From Naumannella halotolerans (GTDB lineage: Bacteria; Actinomycetota; Actinomycetes; Propionibacteriales; Propionibacteriaceae): DNA of 64,000 nucleotides. The stretch covers positions 186,001 to 250,000 of the forward strand of contig NZ_SOAW01000003.1 in the NCBI RefSeq assembly GCF_004364645.1, in the 5' to 3' direction. Positions 55,575 to 60,366 of the stretch are shown piece by piece. Position 1 is the first letter of the stretch, and the number at the start of each line of letters is the position of its first letter. Both the position numbers and the translations under genes were made by a program. The notes under the pieces are model-generated. The model made no database searches and was not told the DNA's origin. It saw only the letters and a program-made list of their open reading frames with translations.

Positions 55575-57734
55575 TCAGCTGTCCTTGGCCCGACGCCGCC
55601 GGACCGCCGCGATCAGGTGCTCCTGCAGGTCCAGCAGCGCGTTCCCCTCCTCGTCATGGGTGCGCTGGGTCCAGGTCTCGTCCTCCAGCCACCAGGACGC
55701 GGTGCCGGGGTCGAAGGCAAGGTCGAACAGTCCGCTGATCTGCTTCACATGCTGCGGATTGCCCAACGAGACCACGGTCTCCACCCGGCGGTCCAGGTTG
55801 CGGTGCATCAGGTCGGCTGAACCGATCCCCACCCGCGGGCGACCGGCGTTGGCGAACCAGAAGATCCGGCTGTGCTCCAGGAACCGGCCGAGGATCGAGC
55901 GGACCCGGATGTTCTCGCTCAGACCGGGTACGCCGGGGCGGATGGTGCAGATCCCACGTACCCACAGGTCCACCGGTACGCCGGCCATCGAGGCCCGGTA
56001 GAGGGCATCGCTGATGGCCTCGTCGACCAGGGAGTTGACCTTGATCCGGATCCCGGCCGGTTTGCCCTGGCGGTGATTGGCGATCTCGCCCTCGATCTGG
56101 TCGATCAGTCCCTTGCGGATGCCGTGCGGGGCGACCAGCAGCCGACGGTAGTTGATCTCCTGCGACATACCGGACAGGCGGTTGAACAGCCGGGCGACGT
56201 CCTCGGTGATGATCGGGTTCGCGGTCAGCAGACCCATGTCCTCATACATCCGGGCGGTCTTCGGGTTGTAGTTGCCGGTGCCGATGTGGGCATAACGGCG
56301 AAGGCCCTCGGGCTCCTCGCGTACCACCATCGAGAGTTTGCAGTGCGTCTTCAGGCCCATCAGGCCATAGATCACGTGACAACCGGCCTGCTCCAGCTTG
56401 CGGGCCCAGGCGATGTTGTTCTGCTCGTCGAACCGGGCCTTGATCTCCACCACCGCCAGCACCTGCTTGCCCGCCTGGGCGGCCTCGATCAGGGCATCGA
56501 TGATCGGCGAGTCACCGGAGGTGCGGTACAGGGTCTGCTTGATCGCCAATACGTGCGGATCTGCGGCGGCCTGTTCGATGAACCGCTGGACGCTGGTGGC
56601 GAAGGAGTCGTAGGGATGGTGCAACAACACATCGCGCCGCATCAGCGAGCCGAACATATCGGCCGGCTGGGCGGTCTCCACCTCGGCCAGATCCGGATGG
56701 GTGGCAGGCAGGAAGGCCGGGTACTTCAACTCCTCGCGGTCCAGCCCGCCGAGCCCGAACAGGCCGGTCAGGTCCAGCGGCCCGGGCAGGGAGTAGACCT
56801 CCTCGGGGGAGATGTCGAGTTCGGTGGTGAGCAGTTCCAGCATCACCTCGTCGATGTCGTCCTCGACCTCCAGGCGGACCGGCGGACGACCCAGTTTGCG
56901 CCGCAACAGCTCCTTCTCCAGCGCGAACAGCAGGTTCTCCGCGTCGTCCTCCTCAACCTCCACGTCCTCGTTGCGGGTGACCCGGAACATGTGGTGGGTG
57001 AGGACCTGCATCCCGGAGAACAACTGGTCCAGGTGGCGGGCGATCACATCCTCCAGCGGTAGGAAGCGGCCGCCGCCCAGGGCGACCAGGCGGGGCAGGA
57101 TGTTCGGCACCTTCACCCGGGCGAACTGCCGGGCACCGGTGCTCGGATGCTTCAACAGCACCGCCAGGTTCAACGACAGACCCGAGATGTAGGGGAACGG
57201 GTGCGAGGGGTCGACCGCCAGCGGGGTCAGCACCGGGAAGATCCGGTCGGTGAACAGGGTCCGCATCCGGTCCTTCTCCGGTGCCTGCAGTTCGTCCCAG
57301 CGAAGGATCTCGATGCCCTCGGCGCTGAGCGCCGGGCGGACCTCCTCGGTGAAGACCCGGGCCTGTTCGGTGACGAGTTCGCGAGTGCGTTCGAGGATCA
57401 TCCGATGGACATCGCGCGGCAGCATCCCCGAGGCGCCCGGTACGGCGACCCCGGCGGCCATCCGTCGTTTCAGGCCGGCCACCCGGACCATGAAGAACTC
57501 GTCCAGGTTGGCCGAGAAGATCGCCAGGAACTTCGCCCGCTCCAGCAGCGGGATCCGGTCGGCATCACGGGCCAGGTCGAGTACCCGGTTGTTGAAGGCC
57601 AACCACGACATCTCGCGATCGGCGAAGCGGTGTTCGGGCAACGTGACGGCGGTGTCCGGTTCCTCGGCCTCGCGAGGCTCCAGCTCTGCTTCCACCGTTG
57701 CCACCTCCGGGTTCGTCGGGTGAGTTGCTGACAT
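55575..57734 (-). CDS. ppk: Polyphosphate kinase 1
   Basis: 719 residues from ATG 57734; the preceding in-frame TTG is ignored because ATG overlaps the mshD stop (TGATG). Polymerises the gamma-phosphate of ATP into polyphosphate. Seen: the N-terminal NRELSW-type motif [26 protein letters not shown], catalytic histidine in [11 protein letters not shown] near 463, second histidine in [13 protein letters not shown] near 642, and [14 protein letters not shown]. Tight coupling to mutT1 and mshD is notable. Confidence 0.95.
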
Positions 57735-58624
57735 CAAACTCTATCCGAGTCGGCGCCGGGGAACGCGTAGACGACATCTTGGTGAATGACCTCGAAACCG
57801 GCCCGGCGATAGATCTCGACCACCCGCGGCTGGTCGTCCTCCACATAGAGGATCACCCGTTGCTTGCCGAGGTCGACCAGATGCTGCAGCCCGGCGGTCA
57901 GCAGGGCCCGACCGATCCCGCCACCGCCGGCCTCGGGATCGACGGCGAGGACGTAGACCTCACCGGTCTCGGCGTCGTGCTGTTTGGTCCAGTGGAACCC
58001 GGTCAGCCTCGACCGGCCGTCGGCATCGGTCACGGTGGCCACCAGCAGGTCCTCGGGGCGGTACCAGTCCTCACTCATCCGCGAGGCGAGGTCGGCGGCA
58101 TCCATCGCGCCCTGTTCGGGGTGGTGGGAGAAGGCGCGGGCGTTCACCGCGATCAGCTCCTCGGCGTCCTCGGCCCGGTAGCCGCGAATGGTCACTCCCG
58201 CCGGCGGCGGCACCACCTCCACCGGCCCGGCCGGCGATCGCTCCATGATCAACAACTTGCGTACCGGTTCGGCCCCGCGCGCCGCGGCCCAGGCCCTCGC
58301 CCCGGCGAGGTCGCCGAAGGCCCAGTAGGCAAGGGATCGCGGGTGGTCGCTGAGTTCGGCGACGATCCCGGTGGCGACACCGGACCGGCGGTGATCGGGA
58401 TCGACCACCACCTGGACGTGCCCGTCGGCCAGCAACCCGTACCCGATCAGGGCCTCGGCAGAATGCGCCGTGACCTGCCGTTCGGGGCCGCCGTGGTTGA
58501 TGCTGATCATGGCCGCTTCGTTCAGTGCAGCGGTGCCGTCGACGGCCCGGGCGGCCTCGACCAGTGACCTCACCTCGGCGGTGTCGGGAACGGCGGTGCT
58601 GAAGGTCGTACGCTGCAGGCTCAC
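57734..58624 (-). CDS. mshD: Mycothiol synthase (acetyl-CoA:Cys-GlcN-Ins acetyltransferase)
   Basis: 296 residues from GTG 58624. Two GNAT domains: an N-terminal one with [22 protein letters not shown] near 85 and a C-terminal one with [30 protein letters not shown] near 230, whose acetyl-CoA loop is intact. It makes the last step of mycothiol. GTG lies 7 nt after a minus-strand TAGTCT that belongs to a palindrome shared with the divergent gene. In mycobacteria mshD also lies beside glnR and phosphate-transport genes. Confidence 0.92.
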
Positions 58625-58631
58625 CAGCCCA

Positions 58632-58641
58632 AGACTAGTCT
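58632..58641. promoter_or_regulatory. Palindromic -10 element shared by mshD and the divergent gene
   Basis: AGACTAGTCT is a perfect palindrome that contains TAGTCT on both strands. On each strand exactly 7 nt separate this hexamer from a start codon: GTG 58624 (minus) and ATG 58649 (plus). Only 24 bp lie between the two start codons and neither has a Shine-Dalgarno, so both mRNAs may be leaderless and compete for the same site. Confidence 0.65.
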
Positions 58642-58648
58642 GTCGGTG

Positions 58649-59230
58649 ATGTCCGAGCCTGCTGAACGACCCACGCCCTCCGAGCCGCCGTCGGGGAACG
58701 ATCCCGTCGACCCTGCCGACCCCGGACCCGGGACCGCCGATCCTGATCCGATCGACCCGCAGTTCGTCGCGGCCAGTCGACGCACCGCCGCAGTCGGTAC
58801 GGTGATCGCGCTGATCTGTCTGCTCGGCGTGATCATCGCCCCGGCCCTGTCCTTCGTGGGCTTCAGCCTCTGGGCAGTGCTGACGATCACCACCGCCCTG
58901 GTGATGGTGGCGATCTGCGGATTCCAGTTCTCGGTCTGGAACCGGGTGCAGCGCGGTGACGCCTCGGTCTGGCGGCTGCAGACGATGTCCTGGGCGGGGC
59001 ACCTGCTGTCGTACCTGATCGCCCTGCTCGGTCTGGTCGCAGGGCTGGTCACGATGTCGGTCGACGGCCCGCTGTCACTCGCCTTCTGGATCGCGCTGCT
59101 GGCCGGGCTGGCGTTGTTGCTGGCCCAGTCGACCGCCGCCGTGCAGTTCCTGCGCCGCGGTGGCCCGCCCGGGACCATTCCGGCCCACATCCGCCGGCTG
59201 ATCGACGCCACCAGCCGCCTCGGCAGCTGA
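58649..59230 (+). CDS. Small four-helix membrane protein of unknown function
   Basis: 193 residues from ATG 58649 (a GTG directly before it is in frame). The first 45 residues are Pro/Asp-rich ([16 protein letters not shown]), then four hydrophobic segments near 50-72, 75-97, 110-135 and 142-165, with a basic C-terminal tail. No family was recognised with certainty; it resembles small multi-spanning actinobacterial membrane proteins. It shares its promoter region with mshD and lies 23 nt before dtd. Confidence 0.75.
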
Positions 59231-59253
59231 GCCCGGCTGGCTACCCTCGGCCC

Positions 59254-59679
59254 ATGCGGTTGGTGGTGCAGCGGGCGCTGCAGGGCAAGGTCAGTGTCGA
59301 CGCCGAGACCGTCGGGGAGTTGCCGGGACCGGGCCTGGTGGTGCTGGTCGGTGTGACCCACGACGATGATCGCGAGACCGCCGCCCGGATGGCGTCGAAG
59401 GTCTGGCAGTTGCGGATCCTGCGGCAGGAGCAGTCCGCGGCGCAGATCGGGGCACCGCTGCTGGTGATCTCCCAGTTCACGCTCTATGCCGACACCCGTA
59501 AGGGGCGTCGTCCGTCCTGGGGTGCGGCTGCCCCCGGAGCGGTGGCAGAACCGCTGGTCGAGGCCTTCGTGGAGGCCCTGCGCGGATTCGGGGCCGTGGT
59601 GCAGACCGGGCGCTTCGGTGCCGACATGGCCGTGGAGGTGATCAACGACGGTCCGGTGACGCTGATCCTGGAGAGCTGA
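59254..59679 (+). CDS. dtd: D-aminoacyl-tRNA deacylase
   Basis: 141 residues, a few fewer than usual in the loop before the first motif. It frees D-amino acids from mischarged tRNAs. Seen: MRLVVQRA start, the nucleophile region [17 protein letters not shown] near 73-89 and the Gly-cisPro motif [10 protein letters not shown] at the end. ATG 59254 lies 6 nt after TACCCT (59242-59247), so it is probably leaderless. It is convergent with glnR at 30 bp. Confidence 0.93.
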
Positions 59680-59709
59680 GGGCCCGGGAGCGGCGAGACG
59701 GGCCGGCGT

Positions 59710-60366
59710 TCAGCGGGCCGCCAGCCGGTAGCCGACATTGCGGACGGTGACGATCATCTGTTCGTACTCCGGCCCGAGCTTGGCCCGCAGGCGGCGGACG
59801 TGCACATCGACGGTACGGGTGCCGCCGTAGTAGTCGTATCCCCAGACGTCGGAGAGCAGCTGCTCCCGGCTGAACACCCGGCCCGGATGCTGCACCAGGT
59901 ACTTCAGCAGTTCGAACTCGGTGTAGGTGAGGTCGAGGGAGTTGCCGTTCAGCCTGGCGGCATAGGCGGACTCGTCGATCTCGATACCACCGGAGGAGAT
60001 GACCTCCTCGGCATGACTGCTGCTCAGGCACAACCGGATCCGGGCCTCGAGCTCGGCCGGCCCGATGTTGGTCATCACGAAGTCGTCGAAGCCCCAGTCA
60101 CCGGCCACCGTGGCCAGGCCGCCGTCGGTCATGATCACCAGGATCGGTGCCTGGTTGGTACCGGAGAGCAATTTGCACATCGCCCTGGCGTTGACCAGAT
60201 CGGTCCGCGCATCGAGCATGATCAGCTCGGCCGAGGGCAGTTCGGTCAGTTGGGAGGCGTCGGAGGGGATCATCCGGATCTGGTGGGACAGCAGGCCCAG
60301 TGCGGGCAGGATGTCGACCGAGTTCGCATCCTGGAGATGTTTGGCGAGCAGCAGTATCTGCGCCAC
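59710..60366 (-). CDS. glnR: GlnR-like orphan response regulator (OmpR/PhoB type)
   Basis: 218 residues from GTG 60366, with GGGGAGG 5 nt upstream. The receiver domain is atypical: a single aspartate region LIMLDARTDL near 50 and GDWGFDDFVM near 90, with no acidic pocket at the N-terminus. This fits GlnR, which works without a dedicated kinase. The winged-helix domain reads LDLTYTEFELLKYLVQHPGRVFSREQLL near 142 and TVDVHVRRLRAKLG. GlnR controls nitrogen assimilation. The glnR-mshD proximity matches mycobacterial order. No GlnR box was identified in the window. Confidence 0.85.
   Translation of the reverse strand: MAQILLLAKHLQDANSVDILPALGLLSHQIRMIPSDASQLTELPSAELIMLDARTDLVNARAMCKLLSGTNQAPILVIMTDGGLATVAGDWGFDDFVMTNIGPAELEARIRLCLSSSHAEEVISSGGIEIDESAYAARLNGNSLDLTYTEFELLKYLVQHPGRVFSREQLLSDVWGYDYYGGTRTVDVHVRRLRAKLGPEYEQMIVTVRNVGYRLAAR

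Follow-up and report, generated by a model that had tools for sequence, protein, structure and literature searches.

Promoters that act bidirectionally in bacteria through symmetric -10 elements have reportedly been described by Warman et al. in 2021. According to a 2026 report, the two transcription start sites (TSSs) of such promoters most commonly lie 18 bp apart, with distances of 10 and 23 bp also being common (Warman et al. 2026, PMC12825309), while a study of Salmonella plasmids takes divergent TSSs 7-25 bp apart as its working definition (PMC10268837). In E. coli, the basal activity of the five bidirectional promoters tested is too low for competition, which occurs only once one direction is substantially activated and can then repress the other (PMC12825309). 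A related system is found in M. tuberculosis, where closely juxtaposed divergent promoters are a common feature, and both genes of the divergent pair Rv1129c/prpD begin translation at the TSS (PMC3898074). The locus described here resembles the bidirectional promoters in that one near-symmetric -10 element would serve divergent transcription, a single polymerase would be accommodated at a time, and the predicted TSS distance would fall at the edge of 7-25 bp; it resembles Rv1129c/prpD in the predicted start of translation at the TSS of both divergent genes. In contrast to the bidirectional promoters, the focal site is predicted to be leaderless both ways, consists of a perfect 10-bp TANNNT palindrome, and falls outside the commonest, 18-bp class. 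Among the papers matched by our literature searches, as judged by titles and the starts of abstracts, none described this bidirectional leaderless layout or this locus. Taken together, the findings discussed below suggest that two opposite genes probably share one palindromic promoter box, read without an mRNA leader on either side. The locus would thus be a genus-conserved example of the bidirectional bacterial promoters already described, and not a new kind of switch; it is ordinary in kind and neat in detail, its notable points being its compactness and the leaderless arrangement on both sides.

The window, a stretch of 64,000 nucleotides, carries the perfect palindrome AGACTAGTCT within the sequence CAC-cagccca-AGACTAGTCT-gtcggtg-ATG (58622-58651), and TAGTCT can be read on either strand (Table 1). 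The initial annotation had read TAGTCT from both directions, in each case 7 nt away from a start codon, with 24 bp between the start codons of mshD and the membrane-protein gene; both the coordinates and the arithmetic proved right, as did its remark that the -35 zones of both promoters fall inside the opposite reading frame, which follows from the geometry. A 2-bp overlap of the two hexamers is possible because the dinucleotide TA is self-complementary. By our own derivation, overlaps of 1, 3 or 6 bp between TANNNT and its mirror image are impossible, and overlaps of 4 or 5 bp need a tighter sequence. As in a bidirectional promoter, opposite-strand -10 elements overlap in one common element, both here and in the congener, and each side displays the pattern of a leaderless gene, namely TANNNT about 6-8 nt before the start codon (here 7 and 7 nt) without a Shine-Dalgarno sequence. 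By our own arithmetic, hexamers that overlap by 2 bp would place the TSSs 23 bp apart if 6 nt separate box and TSS, and 25 bp apart if 7 nt do. With leaderless mRNAs on both sides, the predicted start sites at 58624 and 58649 would be 25 bp apart, just at the limit of the 7-25 bp definition. As judged from these distances, the configuration would fit the 23-bp class of bidirectional promoters at leaderless-style spacing.

Table 1. Coordinates of the features of the divergent locus (positions in the window).
Feature	Position	Strand	Basis
Two TANNNT -10 hexamers, mirror image, 2-bp overlap	58632..58641		Perfect 10-bp palindrome AGACTAGTCT; identical in congener
TA common to both hexamers, predicted -12/-11 of each promoter	58636..58637		Sequence; promoter numbering inferred
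-10 element TAGTCT of mshD (putative)	58632..58637	-	TANNNT 5-8 nt before in-frame start in 45/48 family rows
-10 element TAGTCT of membrane-protein gene (putative)	58636..58641	+	TANNNT 5-9 nt before in-frame start in 16/23 divergent pairs
Spacer, -10 to mshD start, 7 nt	58625..58631	-	Congener: 6 nt
Spacer, -10 to membrane-gene ATG, 7 nt	58642..58648	+	Congener: 8 nt
mshD, mycothiol synthase (GNAT); GTG start = predicted TSS, leaderless	57734..58624	-	TIGR03448, 249 bits; TSS inferred
Small membrane protein; ATG start = predicted TSS, leaderless	58649..59230	+	Translation; homologues beside mshD in several genera; TSS inferred
Expected -35 contact of plus-strand promoter, 17-nt spacer	58613..58618	+	Within mshD codons; geometry; no consensus seen
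Expected -35 contact of mshD promoter, 17-nt spacer	58655..58660	-	Within membrane-protein codons; geometry; no consensus seen

The assignment of the minus-strand gene, whose GTG start codon has its first base at 58624, rests on its match to the mycothiol synthase model TIGR03448 (249 bits against a cut-off of 163 bits). The plus-strand product belongs to an unnamed family; its N-terminus is rich in Pro and Asp, and its membrane character was judged by eye from the translation. At the thresholds used, neither Pfam nor NCBIfam gave a match to it, and a scan of the genome contigs with the membrane protein as query gave no relative. An in-frame GTG at 58646 offers an alternative start for this gene; the ATG at 58649 fits better as a leaderless start, and the window has no Shine-Dalgarno-like stretch ahead of it. 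Farther upstream of mshD, and likewise on the minus strand, is a response-regulator-like gene (59710-60366); between the two, the interval 57734-60366 holds a pair of plus-strand genes, the membrane gene and one resembling D-Tyr-tRNA deacylase (names by eye). Several relatives have the C-terminus of a response-regulator-like protein ending just ahead of mshD.

Spacing of TANNNT relative to start codons was measured in samples of this genome (G000) and its congener (G001). The 595 genes called in this genome offered 1587 candidate in-frame starts; TANNNT preceded 64 of these by 6 nt and 36 by 7 nt, compared to an average of about 4 at other spacers; at 6-8 nt, it preceded 110 of the 595 genes, compared to 6-12 genes at three control spacings. 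Given this peak, boxes 7 nt from the start codon at either end of a single 24-bp gap likely represent two working leaderless promoters. In the congener (1642 candidate starts), TANNNT occurred 11 times at 8 nt, compared to 57 times at 6 nt and 51 times at 7 nt. Divergent pairs in which both genes are of this leaderless type are ordinary, making up 9 of 89 pairs in G000 and 9 of 88 in G001. The focal pairs are not among these since our own gene caller placed the focal membrane-gene start too far downstream in G000 and missed the gene in G001. All 18 other pairs sampled in the two genomes have separate boxes, the smallest hexamer gap being +17, in contrast to the 2-bp overlap of the focal boxes. 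The layout had been called unusual at the outset, and this holds for its compact, doubly leaderless form (0 of the 18 other pairs overlap); it does not hold for the motif ANNNTANNNT itself, which is frequent in divergent stretches.

Divergent intergenic stretches contained ANNNTANNNT 18 times in 153 segments, the focal one counted, which is not clearly above shuffled sequence. The count was 9 in 72 segments of G000 (focal site included; shuffle mean 6.1, with 35 of 200 shuffles reaching 9) and 9 in 81 segments of G001 (shuffle mean 5.6, with 23 of 200 reaching 9); the excess is at most weak. In co-directional stretches, ANNNTANNNT was found 4 times in G000 compared to a shuffle mean of 9.0, and twice in G001 compared to 5.5, with 198 and 199 of 200 shuffles, respectively, reaching the count. 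This depletion may not be specific to ANNNTANNNT, since a reversed control motif was also low in the same stretches (13 vs 22.9 in G000 and, only slightly, 13 vs 16.2 in G001). Single TANNNT boxes were in clear excess in divergent stretches, with 115 in G000 and 120 in G001 compared to 71 and 66 in shuffles, and none of 200 shuffles reached these counts.

A single copy of the decamer AGACTAGTCT is present in the window (shuffle mean 0.01), and the 3.47-Mb genome as a whole has 2, compared to 0.85 expected from base composition; we accordingly rejected the idea that the palindrome is rare in itself. The mirrored geometry CAY-N6-8-ANNNTANNNT-N6-8-RTG was matched 3 times in 750 kb of this genome (a sample of 67% GC), compared to 4 times for the reversed control, and 3 times in 720 kb of the congener, compared to none for the control. 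The other matches to this geometry (L137 and L133 in G000; L188 and L191 in G001) were rejected as further cases, as none is situated between two genes that both start there by our own gene calls. What lifts the focal case above chance is that the site lies between two divergent genes, that its spacers fall at the 6-7 nt leaderless peak, and that it is kept in the congener.

The genus sample consisted of two genomes, that of the window and one congener, and the palindrome was present in both (2/2). In the congener, whose mshD is 61% identical, AGACTAGTCT lies between the equivalent two genes as CAC-cgggca-AGACTAGTCT-gtgctgcg-ATG, with an identical palindrome, an identical 24-bp gap, and spacers of 6 and 8 nt. 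The initial annotation had looked to conservation of the palindrome together with both 7-nt spacers. The first part stood, the palindrome being identical in the congener, while the 7/7 mirror gave way to 6/8, and exact 7/7 spacing was rejected as a conserved feature. Given the less used 8-nt spacer, the plus-strand transcript of the congener may carry a 1-2-nt leader.

Retention of all 10 bp in the congener although both spacers changed could also be expected if the palindrome were the operator of a transcription factor controlling both genes, its resemblance to -10 elements being secondary. A perfect palindrome between divergent genes is the classical operator layout, and in both genomes an 18-bp palindrome resembling an operator spans the start of a leaderless MerR-like gene (L137 and L146). 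Several observations nevertheless make an operator unlikely. In either species, pairing without interruption stops after 10 bp, the next three flanking positions being unpaired, and the palindrome was found neither to extend beyond the promoter core nor to be repeated before other genes; the genome has just one further exact copy, which covers the stop codon of a ylxR-like gene upstream of infB. Both hexamers, moreover, are placed where the -10 boxes of the family are. The degree of conservation is also not exceptional, and was rejected as such: among 36 orthologous leaderless promoters, 9 (the focal one counted) are identical over the equivalent 10 bp, that is, the hexamer plus 4 upstream bases, and the spacer is unchanged in 22 and altered in 14. 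Since 9 of 36 are equally identical, no additional binding protein is needed to explain the conservation. The 18-bp palindrome (L137:7119-7148) is comparable to the focal site in that it covers the -10 element of a leaderless gene and is identical in the congener. In contrast, the focal palindrome is only 10 bp long, has no regulator gene immediately adjoining, and is explained by two -10 hexamers.

We assessed conservation of the two boxes separately across the family. The 48 family rows for mshD are the loci retrieved, out of 182 genomes with an mshD match; L020, L021, L033, L034 and L042, which repeat genomes already kept, were left out. In 45 of the 48, an in-frame mshD start was preceded by TANNNT at 5-8 nt, the three misses (L030, L031 and L032) all belonging to genus g16. 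A second mshD set, mostly Nocardioides and including two repeats of family rows (L063 and L093), had the box in 43 of 58 loci, none of the 43 with the TA shared. For the pairing of mshD with the membrane gene, 56 genomes had a match, with no locus retrieved for 26 of these, among them G129, in which both matches lie side by side. The 30 loci retrieved, minus 7 without an mshD match in the retrieved stretch (L040, L045, L056, L058, L060, L061 and L062), gave 23 divergent pairs; the mshD match of L038 is only 33% identical. For 16 of the 23, an in-frame start of the membrane gene had TANNNT 5-9 nt ahead of it; these include the doubtful start of L049, for which a downstream ATG aligns better with relatives. 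The remaining 7 had no leaderless-like start, several showing a Shine-Dalgarno-like stretch instead. Because boxes precede both mshD (45/48) and the membrane gene (16/23), both leaderless promoters are very probably genuine. Together with the identical palindrome of the congener, these frequencies lend sequence support to the original proposal of one palindromic -10 element for two divergent leaderless genes.

The mshD box is better conserved than that of the membrane gene, as might be expected if the focal box served mshD only, with the membrane gene transcribed from elsewhere and the plus-strand TAGTCT a by-product. The 8-nt plus-strand spacer of the congener, the 7 of 23 pairs that lack a leaderless-like membrane start, and the Shine-Dalgarno-like stretches seen in several of these are consistent with that reading, as is L057, which has a shared-TA box and yet has a further box for the membrane gene near its start candidate (6 nt before the start, 81 bp away). 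At the focal locus, however, the starts are 24 bp apart, such that any other plus-strand promoter would have to be sited within mshD. The ATG there has no Shine-Dalgarno-like stretch ahead of it, and TAGTCT has been retained 7-8 nt from it in both genomes of the genus. We consider it improbable that the box serves mshD only, and favor the view that it serves both genes.

Sharing of a box was uncommon among the divergent pairs. A plus-strand box has its TA in common with the mshD box in 4 of 23 (L003, L004, L010 and L057), those of G000 and G001 forming the palindrome. L010 (genus g14) and L057 (genus g20) have a TA common to both boxes without a palindrome, in the sequences ACGGTAGTCT and AAGCTACCCT, respectively, and the membrane gene of L010 is led. 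The nearest plus-strand box lies 6-7 bp from the mshD box in 8 of the 23 (L035, L036, L037, L046, L047, L049, L052 and L054) and 22-94 bp from it in 11. In 19 of the 23 pairs no TA is in common, and in 21 the palindrome is absent; thus, sharing of a single box is not general for the mshD/membrane-gene pair, and the expectation that the palindrome would be conserved wherever the two genes stay divergent was not borne out. In a tree of mshD, g1 clusters with g2 and g22 (91/86), whereas g9 is the partner (100/98) of g14, to which L010 belongs; both groupings fall inside one weakly supported group (83/86). On this tree, the shared TA would have been either gained more than once or lost more than once. 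The 6-7 bp gap between -10 boxes recurs in two genera (g18 and g23), and this spacing may itself be constrained.

These frequencies also bear on the suggestion, made in the initial annotation, that the two genes would be expressed reciprocally. Under such an orientation switch, which adds to the shared-promoter reading and does not exclude it, polymerase competition at the common box would render mshD and the membrane protein mutually exclusive. With the hexamers overlapping by 2 bp and both -35 zones lying over the opposite gene, simultaneous binding is sterically implausible, and the E. coli work cited above indicates that substantial activation one way can repress the other (PMC12825309). 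However, the same work reports that none of the five promoters tested was strong enough for competition at basal level, which runs counter to reciprocal expression. Since 19 of the 23 pairs lack a common box, no such coupling has been kept in the family, and the failure to find a -35 consensus at the focal locus gave no sign of a strong promoter. Taken together, these points make a reciprocal switch unlikely. A version that operates under thiol or envelope stress, in which an activator or a second sigma factor would favor one direction and trade mycothiol synthesis against the membrane protein at the single TA step, appears very unlikely.

We instead favor, with good though not full confidence, a promoter of the 2-bp-overlap class, its start sites about 23-25 bp apart, that would be used in both directions with the housekeeping sigma factor and would serve two divergent leaderless genes. 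The sequence, its geometry and its conservation are observations; what we infer is the sigma factor, the start sites and promoter activity, along with steric exclusion, basal-level independence and the direction in which the arrangement evolved. RNA polymerase bearing the housekeeping sigma factor would recognize ANNNTANNNT in either orientation, with the self-complementary TA providing T-12 and A-11 to both directions. Since 7 nt separate each hexamer from its start codon, each transcript would be expected to begin at its start codon or ~1 base away. One polymerase at a time would occupy the box, binding in one orientation presumably excluding the other on steric grounds, and at ordinary basal strength the two genes would be transcribed independently, with no switch. 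The arrangement most likely arose from two separate leaderless promoters that were drawn together until their -10 boxes overlapped.

P. acnes is a member of the Propionibacteriaceae, the same family as the organism of the window. Leaderless mRNAs and a TAnnnT -10 element are documented for P. acnes, together with GnTTnG as its -35 motif (PMC3848588). GnTTnG was not found upstream of either box at the focal locus, and a sigma70 scan gave no TTGACA-type -35 pair for either direction. The M. tuberculosis study likewise describes TANNNT promoters for which no conserved -35 element was found (PMC3898074).

As a single locus, this promoter leaves current understanding unchanged. With its 24 bp, single palindromic box and predicted lack of leaders, it offers a natural minimum for asking how little DNA can drive two genes. 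The divergent pairs also provide a comparative series within one family, running from -10 boxes that are far apart, via the recurring 6-7 bp gap, to boxes that overlap, and this series of box distances could be used to test where polymerase competition begins.

Two further palindromes were noted in the course of the analysis. The 18-bp palindrome of L137:7119-7148 (G000:C1, about 1927119), GCTTACGTTAACGTAAGC, is perfect, lies over the -10 element of a leaderless gene assigned by eye to a MerR-like family, and is identical in the congener orthologue (L146); it looks like an autoregulatory operator and may resemble LiuR-type sites. The other genomic copy of AGACTAGTCT (L001:1501-1510; G000:C1:538553-538562) includes the TAG stop codon of the ylxR-like gene and sits about 170 nt ahead of the infB-like start (both names by eye), where its TAGTCT could be the -10 element of an infB promoter.
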